64,000 nucleotides of DNA from Acidobacteriota bacterium (lineage in GTDB: Bacteria > Acidobacteriota > Blastocatellia > Pyrinomonadales > Pyrinomonadaceae). The position numbers were made by a program, and so were the translations under genes. Each line of letters begins with the position of its first letter. Positions within the stretch are counted from its first letter, which is position 1. Below the pieces are notes generated by a model. The model was not told where the DNA came from and made no database searches. It saw only the letters and a program-made list of their open reading frames with translations. Below are positions 49,504-59,069 of this stretch, piece by piece. The stretch lies in assembly GCA_003697135.1 (NCBI GenBank), contig RFGC01000044.1, positions 1-64,000 on the forward strand, written 5' to 3'.

Positions 49504-50541
49504 ATGCAGAAGATCATAGATACCATAAGGCAAGAATTTCCTGAGAAAAAAATCGTCATCATCGGTGATCTAGTTGCCGATCAGTTTTTACATGGAACGA
49601 TTGATAGAGTGTCCAGAGAAGCACCCGTTTTTATTCTTCGCCACGAGAAAACAATAACCTCGGCTGGTGGTGCAGCAAATGCGGCAGTTAACGTAGCAAG
49701 TTTAGGTGGAAAGGTTTCTGTAGTAGGTTTGGTCGGAAAAGACAAAAACGGAGATGAATTGATTGCATGTCTTAAAAAAGCTGGTGTAGATTGTTCCGGG
49801 GTTTTGTCGTCTGATAATTTTCAAACTACTACCAAAGTTCGGATTCTAGCGAGCCGCCATTATGCTACTCGTCAACAAGTTCTCAGGATTGATTACGAAA
49901 ATGACAAGATACCAGACGATGAAGAAACCCAACAGAAACTAACAGAAAAATTTTTTAGTGTTTCAAAAGGGGCGAACGCAATTGTAATATCTGATTATAA
50001 CTACGGTGTAGCTTCAAGAAAACTGATACAGACAGCAAGAGAATTTGCTTTGCGAAATGGAATTCCTATCTTGGCTGATTCCAGATACAGACTCAAAGAA
50101 TTCGCTGGTGTGACTTCGGCAACACCAAATCAAGAAGAAGTAGAGGAGTTAATCGGTAAAAAGTTGAACGATGACAATGAACTCATCTCTGAATGTATTC
50201 GTCTTCGTGAGGTTTTGAATACTCAAGCCCTTTTGGTTACGCGTGGAAACAAAGGAATGATTTTGATTGAGCAGGAAAAGCCGCCACTTTTTTTGGAAGC
50301 TGTTGGATCAAAAGAACCAGTTGATGTAACAGGTGCAGGCGATACAGTTATAGCAACATACGCACTTTCATTAGCTTCGGGACTAGATTTTTCCCAATCA
50401 GCTTTTGTTTCCAATCATGCGGGCGGGATAGTTGTAATGAAAAAAGGAACTGCTTCTGTAAGTGCAGAGGAGTTGATTGAGTCTTTGTTGAAACATGATG
50501 CAAAAGAAGAGGGGAAAAAAGCAACAGATTTAAGCCGTTGA
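49504..50541 (+). CDS. hldE1: PfkB-family heptose 7-phosphate kinase (RfaE1-like)
   Basis: The 345-residue PfkB carbohydrate kinase opens with VIIGDLVADQFLHGTIDRVSREAP, typical of D-glycero-D-manno-heptose 7-phosphate kinase, and has SAGGAANAAVNVASLGG and the catalytic PVDVTGAGDT. It makes the 1,7-bisphosphate for ADP-heptose of lipopolysaccharide. The partner nucleotidyltransferase is the next gene, as separate proteins instead of the fused HldE of E. coli. The start lies 12 bases after a terminator's T-run, so its transcription start is puzzling; no ribosome site is clear. Confidence 0.88.
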   Translation: MQKIIDTIRQEFPEKKIVIIGDLVADQFLHGTIDRVSREAPVFILRHEKTITSAGGAANAAVNVASLGGKVSVVGLVGKDKNGDELIACLKKAGVDCSGVLSSDNFQTTTKVRILASRHYATRQQVLRIDYENDKIPDDEETQQKLTEKFFSVSKGANAIVISDYNYGVASRKLIQTAREFALRNGIPILADSRYRLKEFAGVTSATPNQEEVEELIGKKLNDDNELISECIRLREVLNTQALLVTRGNKGMILIEQEKPPLFLEAVGSKEPVDVTGAGDTVIATYALSLASGLDFSQSAFVSNHAGGIVVMKKGTASVSAEELIESLLKHDAKEEGKKATDLSR

Positions 50542-50590
50542 TATTTGAGAGTTTTGAAGCTTGAAGGATATAGAAAAGCAAGTCGTCTGT

Positions 50591-51079
50591 ATGATGAAAG
50601 ATTATCTTGCTCCAATTTTAGGTCGTGATGAGTTGGTTAAAGTAGTATCGGGCCAGAGAAAAGCCGGAAAGAAGATAGTGTTGGCCAATGGATGCTTTGA
50701 TTTGTTTCATGTAGGGCACGTTCGTTATCTAATAGGAGCTAAAGAATTAGGTGATGTTTTAGTTGTTGGAGTGAATTCTGACCGACAGGTTAAGAATTTG
50801 AAAGGCGAAGGGAGACCTTTGATACCTGAACATGAAAGAGCAGAAATAGTGGCGTCTTTGCGGTGCGTTGATTACGTAACAATTTTCGATGAACCGACGG
50901 TTGAAGAATTGATAAGAGCTATTCGGCCCGATTTTCACGCTAAAGGAACGGATTATACAGTTGAGACCGTTCCTGAAAAAGAAATTGTTAGAGAGTGTGG
51001 AGGTAAAGTTGCAATAGTGGGTGATCCTAAAAATCATTCCTCTTCTGCTCTGATCAAGCTTTTGAAGACAACAGGGTGA
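50591..51079 (+). CDS. hldE2: heptose 1-phosphate adenylyltransferase (RfaE2-like)
   Basis: This cytidylyltransferase-fold enzyme adds AMP to heptose 1-phosphate. Family motifs: [16 protein letters not shown] (nucleotide HxGH), [14 protein letters not shown], and HAKGTDYT near the C terminus. ATG 50591 gives 162 residues, close to other RfaE2 proteins; TTG 50561 is an in-frame alternative giving 172. It follows the kinase by 20-50 bp and forms the heptose operon with it. tRNA-Thr lies beyond, about 150 bp away. Confidence 0.9.
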
Positions 51080-52218: not shown

Positions 52219-53424
52219 TCACTTCTCGGGTGTTGGAGAAGGTGAAGGTTCAGGCACACGACGTTTCAGTTGAGGTGGTTCATCTTTTACAGGTTGAGTT
52301 GAATCTTTAGTTTGAGTGCTTGCATCAGTCGGTTGACGACGCTTTAATGTCGGTCTAGAATCTTCTTCCGTGTTGTCTGAAGAAACCTTCAAAGCAACAT
52401 TCGTCATTCTCATCAGACGTTGTTTTACACGCTGAAACTCCGATGTGCTGACGATATATTCCTGTTTTTCTGGGAATCTTGCAATTAAAGCCAAAACTTT
52501 GTCGCGTCTTTCTATTGAAGGTGGATGGGTTGAGAAGAGCCTTTTCAAGGCGCTTGGTTTTTTACGATTCAGTGAAGCTAATTTTTCAAACATTGTAGCC
52601 ATCGCCGTTGGGTCATATCCAGCGGCATACAGATATTGAACGCCTAACATATCTGCTTCTTCTTCAGCGCTTCTCGAAAAATGAAGATAAGCTAGCCCTT
52701 CTCCTAAGCCACCGACGTTTTGCAAAATCGTAGAAGTTACGCCACCACCGAAGATAATACCCGCTAGGATGGCCATGCCGAGAAATCTGCTTTTGCCATA
52801 ATTTTCCATGGCATGACGTGCTGCTACGTGAGCAATTTCATGAGCCATTACGCTTGCCAATTCAGCTTCGTTGTCAGTTGCTAATATCAATCCTGTGTTG
52901 ACGTAAAAGTAACCGCCTGGCAAGGCAAATGCATTCACTTCATCACTTTCTATCACTTTTATTGTGAAGGGAATTTTAGCGTCTGAATGAAGAACCAAGT
53001 TTTGTCCAACACGATTGACGTATTCGCTAATTATAGGATCATCAACTATTTTTACTTGCCTTTCAATTTCCGCCGCTAATTGTCTTCCAATCTCGATTTC
53101 TTTCTCTTGTGAGCCGCCTAGCCAACCAAAGAAGCTATCACTTCCTCTGTTGATATTTCTTTTTCCAATCATCGAAGGGTCTTCTTTGACCGACAAAGGA
53201 CGATTGGTCCTAGTAGATTGCTTAGCTTTATCTGATTCTTCGTTTTGTGATTTTTTGTCTGATTTTTTAGACTGCTTCTTTTTTTCTTCTTTTTTCTCTG
53301 TCTTTTTTTCATCTTGAACTTGCTTGTCTTGGACTTGAGCAAACACAGCAGCCGAAGAAAAACACACATTCATGTAAAATGACAACAAAACAACGAGCGC
53401 CATGAATTTTCGTAGTGTTTTCAT
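52219..53424 (-). CDS. exported M48-family metalloprotease (BepA/YfgC-like)
   Basis: After a signal peptide (VVLLSFYMNVCFSSAAVFAQ), a lysine/serine-rich linker (about 35-85) leads to the M48 domain. The zinc site is HEIAH with a distal glutamate in EEEADMLGVQY. FALPGGYFYVNTG precedes it, as in BepA and Loi-type proteases that clear misfolded outer-membrane proteins. The C-terminal 70 residues are a charged, proline-rich tail. AGGAGG precedes the ATG. No tetratricopeptide domain like that of E. coli BepA is visible. Confidence 0.9.
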   Translation of the reverse strand: MKTLRKFMALVVLLSFYMNVCFSSAAVFAQVQDKQVQDEKKTEKKEEKKKQSKKSDKKSQNEESDKAKQSTRTNRPLSVKEDPSMIGKRNINRGSDSFFGWLGGSQEKEIEIGRQLAAEIERQVKIVDDPIISEYVNRVGQNLVLHSDAKIPFTIKVIESDEVNAFALPGGYFYVNTGLILATDNEAELASVMAHEIAHVAARHAMENYGKSRFLGMAILAGIIFGGGVTSTILQNVGGLGEGLAYLHFSRSAEEEADMLGVQYLYAAGYDPTAMATMFEKLASLNRKKPSALKRLFSTHPPSIERRDKVLALIARFPEKQEYIVSTSEFQRVKQRLMRMTNVALKVSSDNTEEDSRPTLKRRQPTDASTQTKDSTQPVKDEPPQLKRRVPEPSPSPTPEK

Positions 53425-53559
53425 ATTAGACCTCCTTTTTGTTCTAGATTCATTCTAACCTTAAGAGAATGCGAACGGCAACACTTTTATGATGAGTTGC
53501 AAAAGCTGAGGGTTGGTAAATCGGCTTTTACAAACTTTTCATTGGAACCTAAAATTTTC

Positions 53560-53565
53560 TATAAT
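53560..53565 (+). promoter_or_regulatory. candidate -10 box of the BrxC/PglY-like operon
   Basis: A perfect TATAAT lies 79 bp before the ATG at 53645. A -35 box at the right distance (TTTCAT) is poor. Confidence 0.35.
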
Positions 53566-53644
53566 CTTGCTCAATTGGTTTAACCTATGAAAGGAAAACT
53601 GGTAAATTATTTTTGGAAAAATTCCCGCAAGGTGAAATCAAACA

Positions 53645-56600
53645 ATGAGAACAGATAAAAAAGTCAAAGACTTGATTGAAGTTCGCTCCTACAGTGCTTT
53701 GTCGGATTATCTTTCTGATCCAGCTAAAACTTTATCGGCATATCTTTTCACTGACGCCACCGCTGAAATGATGTCGAAGTGGCTTGATAAGATTGCTGAA
53801 GTTTCCGTTCAGAACGGTGCCGCTAAAGCGTTAGCGGGCTACCGTGGTGTTGGGAAAAGCCACTTTCTAGCAACGCTCAGTGCAATACTCTCTCAACCTG
53901 ATTTAAGAGCGCAGATCACCGAGCCTTTAGTTTTGATGAGTGCACAACGCTTGAAAAGAAGGCGTCATCTAGTTGCGCATGTTCGTCGAGGGACTAACGA
54001 AAGTATTTTGGAAGAATTGAAAGACGCCTTGGCCGCAACTCTCGAAATGGAACGAGAAGCTTTAGGGGACTCACCAGAAGAGATGCTACAACTTGCGGCA
54101 AACAGGGCCGGTGATTTGCCGTTCGTGATTATAGTTGATACAGCCATGGAGAGAGTGGCCAGGGTGTCACGTAATGATGGACCTTTCCTTGGTTCGTTAG
54201 CGGAAATTGCAAAGAATTTGAATATTTTTATTGGTCTTGCTTTGGATGACGATATTGCGGGAGCTGATGGGGTAAACGTTGCAATAGCTAGAACTTATTC
54301 GATTGATTACCTAGACACAGACCACCTATACCGAATAGTCAACACTTACGTATTCCCGAAAAATCCGCAGGAAGTTGGTTCTCTCAAAGAAGTTTATAAT
54401 TACTTTCGACGCTACTTGCCAGGCTTTCATTGGAGCGAGCAGAAATTTACTTATCTGTATCCGCTTCATCCGCTGATTTTAGAAATTGCGCCTTTCGTTA
54501 GACTCTACGTGAAAGAGTTTGCACTGATGGGGTTTGCATCAGAAGCAGGAACTAAAATTCTGGGAAGACCTGCTAATTCTTTGATTTGTTTAGACGAAGT
54601 TTTTGACAAGGTTGAGCTTTCACTTCGTAAATCGGACGAATTACAGGAAGCGTTTGCAGCTTTTGACAGAGTAAACAACGAGGTTATAAATCAAATCCCA
54701 GTTATCCAAAGACTTCAGGCAAAGTTGATTTTGAAAACGCTCTTGCTTTTGTCATTGAACGGAGAAGGAGCAACGGATACAGAAGTTAGCGCAGCTACGC
54801 TGATTTTTGATGAAGATAATTTGGAAGATACTTCTAGACCTGTTAGGGAAATCCTACAAAAATTCGCTGAAGCCTTGCCAAATGAGATAAACCGAATTGT
54901 GGAAAAAAGCGGACAGATTCGCTACAGCTTTAAGGTTGCAGGGAAAGACAGCCTCAATCAGGCTTTGCGCGAGGCGGCTTTGGGAATCTCTTCAGATGTG
55001 GTGCCTAAGATTCTCCGCAGATTTGCTAGTGAAAGATTTTCTGACTGGGTTTTGCTTACCGAGAATGAGGTTTTCGATTCCGTGGATTGCAACGTTATAT
55101 GGCGAGGTGGCATAAGACGAGGCAGAGTAATATGGGATTGGTATGAAACTCTAGGACTTGAACCTTCAATGAGAGCCGACTCTTATGATTGGGAAGTGAT
55201 AATAACAAGACCGGAAAGAGAAGTTGTAGATACTGGCGAAGGTGATTCGATTCTTAAAGTTTATTGGCGTCCGGCTCAACTAAGACCCGATGAAGTTGAG
55301 GTGCTCCTCCGTTATCACGTTCTTGTTACTGATACGTGGCTTCAAGAAGAATTCGGAGATCAAATAAGCATTGCCGGACACGCCTTGATGACAACCGTAG
55401 GCAAGATTTGGGAAAGAATTTTTCTCGAGGAAGGTGAGCTGATAATTGACGGAAAGCCTCATAGATTTACAGATATAGCAAAGAACTCTAGGAGCTTGAG
55501 CATAACTTTTACCGAAATGCTCACACCTGCATTTGAGGCTCATTATCCTGAGCACCCCGTTTTCGGCGAAGTCTTAGGAATAAACGAAGTATCAGCTTTG
55601 GTTAGCAGTTTCTTTGGGAGCAGACGGGTAAATGCGCCTGAAACTCAAGCTTTGGCTGTTAATTTTGCAGAACCTCTCAATTTGGTGACAATGCGCGGCG
55701 ATATTTTGGTTCCTTGCTCGCAAGAGGATTTATTGCATTTGCCTACGGTGCAAAAAATAATTTCGTTTCTGAATGAAACCGATAGAGAAGTTGTGCCTCT
55801 GAAAGAAATTTATCATCTTTTAAGGCATGAACCTTATGGTCTAGTGCGTGAGGCTGTTCAACTAATTTTATCTGCTTTGGTTGCCAAAAGAAGGCTTGAG
55901 TTTATAACTTCAGAAGGAAATCGCATAAATTGGCGTTCGTTAGACTTGAAGATTATCTGGGACGATATTGTCGGCATAGCTCGTTCCGAAGTTGTATCCT
56001 ATTCGAGCGCTGAACTGATTGAGTGGGCTAAAACTCTTACTTCCGCAGATAATTTCCAAACTTTAGATGATCCACAAGACAGGGAGAAAATATACGAAGC
56101 TTTAACAAGCTGGCTTAAGGATTGGAGAACAGCAAGAATTTTAGATCGCTTTGAAAAGTTGCCCGAAGATTCTCTGAACACAAAAATTTGGCGACTTGCA
56201 ACCAATGCTAATAAGACTTTCGGAGTTGTTGCTAGCGCAATAGAGGAAGTTCTTAACGACAGCATATCTTTGGAAGAATGTTTACAGAGAATTGCCGATG
56301 CTTTCTCGAATTCCGAGAAAGTCTTTATTGAGCGCACAAAAGACCTAGTAAAACTGGAAGACTTCCTCAATGGAGCAGACCTTCGCAACAAGGCTTGGGA
56401 ATACCTTGCTCTTTGCGAAATAACTCAAGATGAAACTATAGAGCAACTTCGCGAAGAGTTACTTGATGCAATGAATCAAATGACCATAGCACCGAGTGAA
56501 AATCTCAACCGAGAATTTGAAAAATTGTGGAATAATTTTAGAGAAAAGTATGCCGAATACTTCGCCATTCGTCACGATCAAACAATGAGAAATGCAGAAC

Positions 56601-57196
56601 TGCAGGATCAAGTCGAAGAAGTGATAAGAAGCAGAGAATGGTGGGAGTTTGAAACTCTTTCAAGATTTCCTATTTTCCCAAAGAGTTACTACCGAGATGC
56701 CAAAGAACTTTATGAAATAGCCAAACAGCTAAATTGCAAAATTGATGTCAGAGAGATGCTCAAAACCCATCCCGTCTGTGCTTGCTCTTTTAGGCTATCT
56801 CAAATGGAGGTTTGGCGAGAGTTACCACAAAAACTTACCGAGATCATGGAAAAAGGACGTAAAAGTTACAGAAAAATCCTCAGCACTTTAAGAGCGACGA
56901 TTCTGCCGTTTCTAGAAAACATAGCAAAGACAGTTAAAAAGGAAGATGAAAAAGAGGTCTTGCTTGGACTGATAGATATTTTCAAGACCGGTAAACCAAT
57001 ACCTTTACTTTCTGCAAAGGAGATAATGCTACTTGAAAAGGCTGTTAACTCCATTCAAACTTCACCGATGCTCACAGTTGAATTCATAGACGAAGCCGGT
57101 TATTTAGGCAGAGAAGAATGGAAGCAAAGAGTTAGAGAATGGTTAAATGAAATGCCAAAAGAGCCTGTTCTAATAAAGCTCGAGTCCTCGATCTGA
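53645..57196 (+). CDS. large P-loop ATPase resembling BrxC/PglY (DUF6079-like)
   Basis: The 1183-residue protein opens with a short DLIEV segment, then VSDATAE-like helix text (YLFTDATAEMM) and a Walker A, GYRGVGKSH, at 65-73. The order and spacing match the start of BrxC/PglY and related DUF6079 ATPases of BREX phage-defence systems. Walker B would be VIIVD (161-165), but it lacks the following glutamate. A second conserved patch FTYLYPLHPLILEI lies near 275. The rest is long and helical. It has no signal peptide. No brxA, brxB, pglX, pglZ or methyltransferase is nearby; instead a heptosyltransferase-like gene follows 13 bp later. I infer the family from pattern, not from a search. Its role here is unknown. 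Confidence 0.65.
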   Translation: MRTDKKVKDLIEVRSYSALSDYLSDPAKTLSAYLFTDATAEMMSKWLDKIAEVSVQNGAAKALAGYRGVGKSHFLATLSAILSQPDLRAQITEPLVLMSAQRLKRRRHLVAHVRRGTNESILEELKDALAATLEMEREALGDSPEEMLQLAANRAGDLPFVIIVDTAMERVARVSRNDGPFLGSLAEIAKNLNIFIGLALDDDIAGADGVNVAIARTYSIDYLDTDHLYRIVNTYVFPKNPQEVGSLKEVYNYFRRYLPGFHWSEQKFTYLYPLHPLILEIAPFVRLYVKEFALMGFASEAGTKILGRPANSLICLDEVFDKVELSLRKSDELQEAFAAFDRVNNEVINQIPVIQRLQAKLILKTLLLLSLNGEGATDTEVSAATLIFDEDNLEDTSRPVREILQKFAEALPNEINRIVEKSGQIRYSFKVAGKDSLNQALREAALGISSDVVPKILRRFASERFSDWVLLTENEVFDSVDCNVIWRGGIRRGRVIWDWYETLGLEPSMRADSYDWEVIITRPEREVVDTGEGDSILKVYWRPAQLRPDEVEVLLRYHVLVTDTWLQEEFGDQISIAGHALMTTVGKIWERIFLEEGELIIDGKPHRFTDIAKNSRSLSITFTEMLTPAFEAHYPEHPVFGEVLGINEVSALVSSFFGSRRVNAPETQALAVNFAEPLNLVTMRGDILVPCSQEDLLHLPTVQKIISFLNETDREVVPLKEIYHLLRHEPYGLVREAVQLILSALVAKRRLEFITSEGNRINWRSLDLKIIWDDIVGIARSEVVSYSSAELIEWAKTLTSADNFQTLDDPQDREKIYEALTSWLKDWRTARILDRFEKLPEDSLNTKIWRLATNANKTFGVVASAIEEVLNDSISLEECLQRIADAFSNSEKVFIERTKDLVKLEDFLNGADLRNKAWEYLALCEITQDETIEQLREELLDAMNQMTIAPSENLNREFEKLWNNFREKYAEYFAIRHDQTMRNAELQDQVEEVIRSREWWEFETLSRFPIFPKSYYRDAKELYEIAKQLNCKIDVREMLKTHPVCACSFRLSQMEVWRELPQKLTEIMEKGRKSYRKILSTLRATILPFLENIAKTVKKEDEKEVLLGLIDIFKTGKPIPLLSAKEIMLLEKAVNSIQTSPMLTVEFIDEAGYLGREEWKQRVREWLNEMPKEPVLIKLESSI

Positions 57197-57209
57197 TAGG
57201 CTGTTACTC

Positions 57210-58244
57210 GTGAAAATTTTAATTGTCAAACTCGGAAGCATTGGAGACGTGATCCATACTTTGCCTTCTTTGGTTGCGATTAGACGAAAATTCCAAGAAG
57301 CCAGAATTTCTTGGGTCGTTGAGAAAAAAGCTTCCGAGATTTTGCATGGCAACAGGCTTCTAGACGATTTAATAATCATCAACACCGCTGGAATAAGGCG
57401 CTTAAAAGATTTTTCTTCGCTTCGTAGTATCTTTGAACTTTGCAAAATTAAGCCGGACGTGGCTTTGGATTTCCAAGGTCTTTTGAAATCAGCTTTGGTA
57501 GCAAAACTTTCAGGAGCAGAAAGAAGATATGGATTTTCAAAGAATGCGCTTCGTGAGCCTGAAAGTCGCTTTCTTTTAACAGACTTGGTGGAGATTCCTA
57601 ACGGGAAAATCCATGTTATACGAAAGAATTTGCTTTTAGCCGAAAAAGCTTTAGGAGTATCTGTGCCGGAGGTTTTTGAGTTTCCAATTGAAACGGATTC
57701 ATCTCATCAAAAAGAAGCTGAAGAAATCATTAGCAAGGTCGGAGAAAATTTCGCTATTTTGAATCCGGCGGGCGGTTGGAAAACGAAACTTTGGGATGCG
57801 GAAAATTTCGGAGCTTTAGCCGATAGGCTCTGGGAGGAGTTGGGTCTAAAGTCGGTTGTTACAACCGCAAAAGATGAAAGTTTTCTAGCTCAAAGAGTCT
57901 TGCAAAATAGCAAAAGCCGAATGATTATGCTCGCAAACCCTTCACTTAAAGGTTTTTATGAGTTGGTGAAGAGGGCTAGCATCTATGTTGGTGGAGACAC
58001 AGGCCCAACGCATCTTGCGATTGCAGCAAATACGCCTGTTGTAGGCATCTTCGGTCCTACAGAATGGTGGCGTAACGGTAGTTTTCGTTCGGAAGATATT
58101 TGTGTCGAAAGAACAGACATCAATTGTCGCACGAATTGCCATCGTAGAGTTTGCAACAATTGGATTTGCATGGATATCTCAGTTGATCGTGTTTTCGATG
58201 CTGTTAAAAGAAGACTAAAAGTAGCTAGTCGAAAAATAACTTAG
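57210..58244 (+). CDS. glycosyltransferase family 9 (heptosyltransferase-like)
   Basis: The 344-residue protein opens with ILIVKLGSIGDVIHTLP, the standard start of WaaC/WaaF heptosyltransferases. It also has the nucleotide-sugar site GGDTGPTHLAIAANTPVVGIFGPT and a cysteine-rich C-terminal cluster (NCRTNCHRRVCNNWIC). It should add heptose or a similar sugar to the lipopolysaccharide core, fitting the ADP-heptose genes about 7 kb upstream. The start is GTG 57210, 13 bases after the ATPase stop, so both are on one transcript; DUF3108 follows 12 bp later. Confidence 0.9.
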   Translation: MKILIVKLGSIGDVIHTLPSLVAIRRKFQEARISWVVEKKASEILHGNRLLDDLIIINTAGIRRLKDFSSLRSIFELCKIKPDVALDFQGLLKSALVAKLSGAERRYGFSKNALREPESRFLLTDLVEIPNGKIHVIRKNLLLAEKALGVSVPEVFEFPIETDSSHQKEAEEIISKVGENFAILNPAGGWKTKLWDAENFGALADRLWEELGLKSVVTTAKDESFLAQRVLQNSKSRMIMLANPSLKGFYELVKRASIYVGGDTGPTHLAIAANTPVVGIFGPTEWWRNGSFRSEDICVERTDINCRTNCHRRVCNNWICMDISVDRVFDAVKRRLKVASRKIT

Positions 58245-58256
58245 GGATTTTGAGCT

Positions 58257-59069
58257 ATGAGGGCAAATTGGGTTACTAGGCTATTTTTCTTGTTTCTTCT
58301 GTTTTTTGTTTATTCAGAGTGGGTTTTTCTCCAATCTGCTCCACCGAAACCAGAGATTCTACTTCCCGGAGAGACTTTGGTTTACGAAGTAAAGTTCAGC
58401 AAATCAATTCTTCGAGGTATTAGCATCGGCACTTTGTCATTTTCGGTGAGCAAATCGGTTGATAATAAATCCTACGAAATTAAATTTGAAGGACGATCGA
58501 AAGGTATATTGGTTAGCCTTTTTGGGAAAAAAATACTGCAAGTTTTTCATTCTGTAATTGACGAAGAGAAGTTTAGAGTTTTGAAAACCCTAAAGCGTGA
58601 TGAGCAAGGTGACCGCATCAGGGATTCCGAAGCTATTTTTGATTACAACCAGATGAAGGTAGTTTTCACGGAGATCGATCCGAAAGACCCTTTGAAACCA
58701 CCGCGTCGGATTTCTTCCGAGATTGCTGAAGAAACTCATGACTTGGTTTCTGGAGTTTATCGCTTAAGGCAAGTCCCCTTGGAAGTGGGTAAAACCTTTG
58801 AAACGGTTGTTAGTGATTCCGGATTGGTTTACAAGATTCCCGTAAAGGTCACAGCAAGGGAAAAACAAGATACTGTTTTAGGTGATGTTTGGTGTTACAG
58901 AATCGAGCCAGAGGTTTTTGGTAAGGGAAGGTTTATAGAACAAGAAGGGAAAATGGTGATTTGGATTGCAGATAACGAAAGAAAAATTCCTGTTGGTTCA
59001 AGACTCGAAACCGAAATAGGCAGAATCGAAGTTAAATTGAAGAAGGTGCAAATAGCACAAGGAAAATAA
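58257..59069 (+). CDS. exported DUF3108-like protein
   Basis: The 270-residue protein begins with a signal peptide (LFFLFLLFFVYSEWVFL). The mature part is beta-strand rich, starting LLPGETLVYEVKFS, with GLVYKIPVKVTAREK and a final RIEVKLKKVQ. This resembles the DUF3108 family of periplasmic proteins, which have a lipid-transport-like beta fold but no firmly known function. It ends the ATPase-glycosyltransferase operon and converges with the copper ATPase gene 7 bp away. Confidence 0.8.
   Translation: MRANWVTRLFFLFLLFFVYSEWVFLQSAPPKPEILLPGETLVYEVKFSKSILRGISIGTLSFSVSKSVDNKSYEIKFEGRSKGILVSLFGKKILQVFHSVIDEEKFRVLKTLKRDEQGDRIRDSEAIFDYNQMKVVFTEIDPKDPLKPPRRISSEIAEETHDLVSGVYRLRQVPLEVGKTFETVVSDSGLVYKIPVKVTAREKQDTVLGDVWCYRIEPEVFGKGRFIEQEGKMVIWIADNERKIPVGSRLETEIGRIEVKLKKVQIAQGK

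Follow-up and report, generated by a model that had tools for sequence, protein, structure and literature searches.

BREX systems share the ATPase BrxC, whose own contribution is difficult to disentangle from that of its partners. As described in PMC13326643, the last 80 residues of BrxC dimerize independently, and the E269Q substitution leaves ATP-dependent DNA binding intact and strengthens the ATP-bound dimer, indicating that hydrolysis can be lost without loss of DNA binding. In a second paper (PMC12839542) the domain family DUF6079 is equated with BrxC. One copy of a DUF6079 gene is present in the 2.79-Mb genome examined here, on contig C21; the window, that is, the whole 64,000-nucleotide stretch of DNA analysed, is part of this contig. 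The gene, the sites and domains of its product and the neighbouring genes are listed in Table 1.

Table 1. Features of the solo ATPase gene and its surroundings, in window coordinates.
Feature	Residues	Position	Strand	Basis or remark
M48 metallopeptidase, divergent neighbour kept in the family		52219..53424	-	Locus comparison
Promoter-like elements upstream of the ATPase gene		53527..53565	+	Inside family-conserved AT-rich block (53424-53645)
Solo BrxC-type (DUF6079) AAA+ protein, 1183 aa		53645..57196	+	ORF, Pfam, profiles, structure match
Walker A, GYRGVGKS	65-72	53837..53860	+	Lysine invariant in 35/35 aligned members
Walker B, IIVDT region; Asp165 present, catalytic Glu replaced by Thr166	161-166	54125..54142	+	Alignments
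Region of BrxC arginine finger (IARTY); BrxC Arg replaced by Thr216	~213-217	54281..54295	+	Alignment
First winged-helix-like domain	~353-430	54701..54934	+	Model secondary structure; BrxC structural match runs to 431
Central alpha+beta domain	~479-689	55079..55711	+	Models
Second winged-helix domain	~690-785	55712..55999	+	Models, conservation, structural matches
C-terminal segment at position of BrxC dimerization domain	1120-1183	57002..57193	+	Model, alignment; part surviving as G006 remnant
GT9 heptosyltransferase (WaaC-like), genus-specific neighbour		57210..58244	+	Glyco_transf_9, 108.8 bits
DUF3108 protein, genus-specific neighbour		58257..59069	+	Pfam DUF3108, 107.3 bits

The kinship of the encoded protein with BrxC is firm, as judged by Pfam, full-length profile comparison and predicted fold. 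The protein matched DUF6079 (PF19557) at 62.6 bits, well above the curated cut-off of 23, and profile-profile comparison with four DUF6079-type BrxC/PglY proteins of BREX systems from the same phylum (L084-L087) produced an end-to-end alignment of 1091 columns (probability 99.7, E 4e-26). An AlphaFold2 model (mean pLDDT 86.5, pTM 0.54) had BrxC structures as its best matches, with Z scores of 20.7 (9zll) and 20.2. These results bear out the preliminary description, in which a BrxC/PglY-like P-loop protein of 1183 residues was recognized and DUF6079 or BrxC matches were expected from Pfam or profile searches. PADLOC returned weak matches to BrxC (53.4 bits), a profile on which the real BREX BrxC proteins L084-L087 score approximately 2000 bits, and to SspC (39.9 bits). 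A profile of 35 family members searched against the PDB had BrxC (9zll and 9zn5) as its top matches, both weak (E 0.08 and 0.15), and a PDB sequence search with the single protein gave chance coiled-coil matches only. The nearest relative sequence, from a sister species (L031, Pyrinomonadaceae MAG, isolate SKYG66), is 67% identical, and substitutions between the two genes (0.30, 0.16 and 0.59 at the first, second and third codon positions) fall mainly at third positions, indicating that the gene has not arisen by chance.

Comparison with BrxC of type I BREX (PDB 9zll, 9zdx) revealed a similar length, a Walker A motif in both proteins and a BrxC-like predicted domain order, consisting of an ORC/Cdc6-like AAA+ domain, a winged helix, an alpha+beta domain, a second winged helix, a helical part and a C-terminal segment. 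The match to 9zll covered model residues 6-431 (rmsd 5.4 over 395 residues), consistent with the AAA+/winged-helix N-terminal architecture of BrxC. The AAA+ core fold is also common to ORC/Cdc6 initiators (Cdc6/Orc1), the next structural matches with Z up to 13.7, but the window ATPase is much longer, has extra domains and is closer to BrxC in structural score. Similarity to SspC of the Ssp phosphorothioate defence system was weaker than that to BrxC, and no Ssp or Dnd partner was seen among the immediate neighbours of the gene. The middle region, modelled separately (pLDDT 89.1), ended in a winged helix resembling those of DNA-binding regulators, among them CadC, PerR and BlaI (Z up to 8.9). 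Within this second winged helix lies the 25-residue stretch of the protein with the highest conservation in the family (residues 751-775, 0.89). Comparison of the middle domain with the PDB by Foldseek yielded nothing at E <= 0.001, and a later comparison recognized the winged helix only.

Unlike BrxC, the window ATPase has lost the Walker B glutamate and the arginine finger, lies at a fixed chromosomal place and is without BREX partners. In an unrooted tree of 33 N-terminal regions, seven BREX BrxC were divided from 26 non-BREX proteins by a branch with support of 100/99. The Walker A motif was intact in all 33, including the 26 non-BREX proteins, and K71 of the window ATPase corresponds to the Walker A lysine K78 of BrxC. 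The Walker B glutamate (BrxC E269) was present in 7/7 BREX BrxC as against 1/26 non-BREX proteins (L055, which retains DE); the window ATPase has threonine instead, as do 29/29 members of its family set. At the finger position (BrxC R330), which lies in a gapped region of the alignment, all seven BREX BrxC have Arg-Phe whilst none of the 26 non-BREX proteins has arginine. The BrxC/PglY proteins L084-L087, in which the spacing between Walker A and Walker B is similar to that in the window ATPase, retain both DE and the arginine finger. Loss of a BrxB docking insertion, considered in view of a shorter Walker A-B spacing than in Acinetobacter BrxC, was rejected as same-phylum BREX BrxC are similarly short. 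Asp201 (in an LDDD motif) or Glu169, for example, could stand in for the missing glutamate. The ATP site and domain architecture, as read from sequence and predicted by the models, point to a protein that would bind ATP and hydrolyse it slowly or not at all.

No match to BrxB was found in the window genome with the Pfam model, and PglZ gave none above the cut-off of 25 bits. A PglX-type methyltransferase was not found beside the ATPase gene, the neighbours being M48, GT9 and DUF3108. The absence of BREX partners nearby, noted previously from the immediate surroundings, therefore stands and extends genome-wide for BrxB and PglZ as judged with Pfam models, which remote homologues would escape. 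A role for the ATPase alongside BREX-like partners that are encoded elsewhere, unlinked to it, and have escaped detection would depend on such homologues, overlooked by profile searches, and on a single weak PglZ-like match of 23.9 bits. However, this match takes in no more than a portion of the domain, in a frame of 303 aa, and among 60 relatives, most of which carry the ATPase, BrxB was absent from 57 (present in 3) and PglZ exceeded its cut-off in only 4, so that partners of this kind appear improbable. One member of the same family (G007) has a complete type I BREX operon encoding BrxA, BrxB, BrxC, a PglX-like protein, PglZ and BrxL (L149:716-17515) and, apart from it, a solo ATPase gene. 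When the solo protein of this genome was compared by blastp with the BREX BrxC of that same genome, no similarity was apparent (best E 0.79), and the window ATPase matched this BrxC with an E of 1.7e-4 only.

The ATPase is vertically inherited in a fixed chromosomal place. ATPase and rpoB trees of 21 genomes had 11 of 18 splits in common (chance mean 0.24, maximum 4), and distances were closely rank-correlated (rho 0.93) with the ATPase evolving approximately 4.25 times faster. Within the 25 family loci, the gene is divergent from the M48 peptidase gene in 22 of 23 that could be tested and has a DUF2520 gene after it in 19 of 22; DUF2520-Fur genes come after the ATPase elsewhere in the family. 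The M48 neighbour is retained in other families of the class (L063, L065), as is the DUF2520 neighbour (L057, L060). Promoter-like sites upstream of the window gene were no more numerous than expected by chance and carry weight through their conservation; the intergenic region between M48 and ATPase contains a promoter-like conserved block but no clear palindrome. A more-than-remnant ATPase match was present in 31 of 37 family genomes and no match at all in five. In four genomes without an intact ATPase gene (L092-L095) M48 and DUF2520 directly adjoin, and one of these (G006) contains a 60-codon remnant of the ATPase 3' end, with an internal stop and 48% identity to the intact gene of a congener, indicating that the ATPase was lost from its ancestral place. 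Fast evolution together with repeated loss suggests that the role of the protein is conditional.

Repeated loss and a rate about four times that of rpoB would suit a defence gene too, and the nearest characterized relatives, BrxC and SspC, are all defence proteins. A stand-alone anti-phage or anti-plasmid protein, which would recognize foreign DNA and stop it from replicating with no help from BREX partners, its gene being an immune gene retained by vertical descent, is a possible but rather unlikely explanation. The ATPase gene is fixed between housekeeping genes, unlike mobile islands, its product has lost the hydrolysis and finger residues, no nuclease or effector domain was found in it with Pfam, and searches of 72,556 plasmid records, 50,697 phage records and viral contigs returned no match to it. 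A phage or plasmid origin of the ATPase was rejected on this same absence of matches.

The ATPase, GT9 and DUF3108 genes are separated by 13 and 12 bp, as the preliminary description had stated and as the ORFs agree, all three genes having Pfam matches well in excess of the cut-offs, and its account of the surroundings as housekeeping genes is likewise upheld. From this arrangement it had proposed recruitment of the ATPase to an envelope or lipopolysaccharide (LPS) task, in keeping with a tight operon in both window and sister species and a heptose-biosynthesis gene pair approximately 2.5-4 kb upstream. Among the family loci compared, however, LPS-gene neighbours of the ATPase occur in the window and L031 only, so that the gene order, the absence of which even from close relatives the preliminary description had taken as refuting its view, is kept in the genus but breaks down at family level, where M48 and DUF2520 are the neighbours conserved instead. 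In most of the other family genomes examined, GT9 and DUF3108 genes are near one another in the absence of the ATPase gene, usually with a gene of ~185 aa in between, and the DUF2520 gene of the window genome is on a different contig; these observations together indicate that the ATPase and GT9-DUF3108 units were brought together by a rearrangement within the genus. The link to LPS genes is a local accident, and these genes are most likely passengers or share just a transcript with the ATPase. An envelope function through this operon is accordingly highly improbable, and the proposed recruitment was dismissed on synteny, GT9-DUF3108 being independent of the ATPase in the family. In relatives (L132-L144) a near-conserved unit of GT9, a gene of ~185 aa and DUF3108 was observed, the middle gene of which is absent in the window and is PEMT-like (phospholipid-methyltransferase-like) in the one case tested (L138). 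The upstream heptose genes (49504-51079) encode a heptose-phosphate kinase and an adenylyltransferase, both HldE halves, as separate genes.

Further BrxC-like proteins were observed in the distribution survey, which covered Acidobacteriota. A response-regulator receiver domain scoring 89.9 bits occupies residues 839-950 inside a DUF6079 paralogue in genome G058 (L058:7345-11061), in keeping with a regulatory role; the gene of this paralogue is followed by one that appears pyrF-like by eye and by a DUF3108-like gene. Shorter solo paralogues of ~1010-1040 aa in families f3 and f5 (L056:7004-10039, L061, L062, L064, L066) form their own clade with no recognized BREX genes alongside. More distant BrxC-like proteins, also with no recognized BREX genes alongside, are present in other Acidobacteriota families (L079-L081 in f23 and f39; L082, L083 and L089 in f33), those of f33 being encoded after a gene of ~820-860 aa.

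The reading we favour, to which we assign roughly even chances, is that the solo BrxC homologue is, in Pyrinomonadaceae and in related families of Blastocatellia, encoded by a gene of the host chromosome whose product is an ATP-gated, DNA-bound switch with a conditional and dispensable role. The gene would have become, or would always have been, part of the host chromosome. The protein would dimerize mainly via its C-terminal segment, and the winged helices and alpha+beta domain would seat it on double-stranded DNA, where it would act as a scaffold or regulator gated by ATP, in the service of the host chromosome rather than of a restricting BREX complex. From the features described above we infer that it binds DNA, hydrolyses ATP slowly if at all and has a host role.

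These data suggest that a defence-type ATPase can exist as a host switch alone. More tentatively, and with less confidence than we place in the family-level reading, BrxC-type proteins may have a cellular, non-defence branch in several Acidobacteriota families, comprising vertically inherited, ATP-binding, hydrolysis-deficient DNA-bound switches and including one paralogue with a receiver domain. Such a branch would descend from BREX by domestication, or else represent the cellular source of the BREX ATPase, two histories that the unrooted BrxC tree does not separate. It was not found in the passages searched of two open-access papers naming DUF6079, and nothing relevant on orphan or domesticated BrxC was found in the open-access papers searched. 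If this is true, it would caution against labelling DUF6079 genes as defence genes, and the solo proteins would constitute a natural partner-free family of the same architecture, with ATP binding intact and hydrolysis residues lost, in which the DNA-binding switch could be studied alone.
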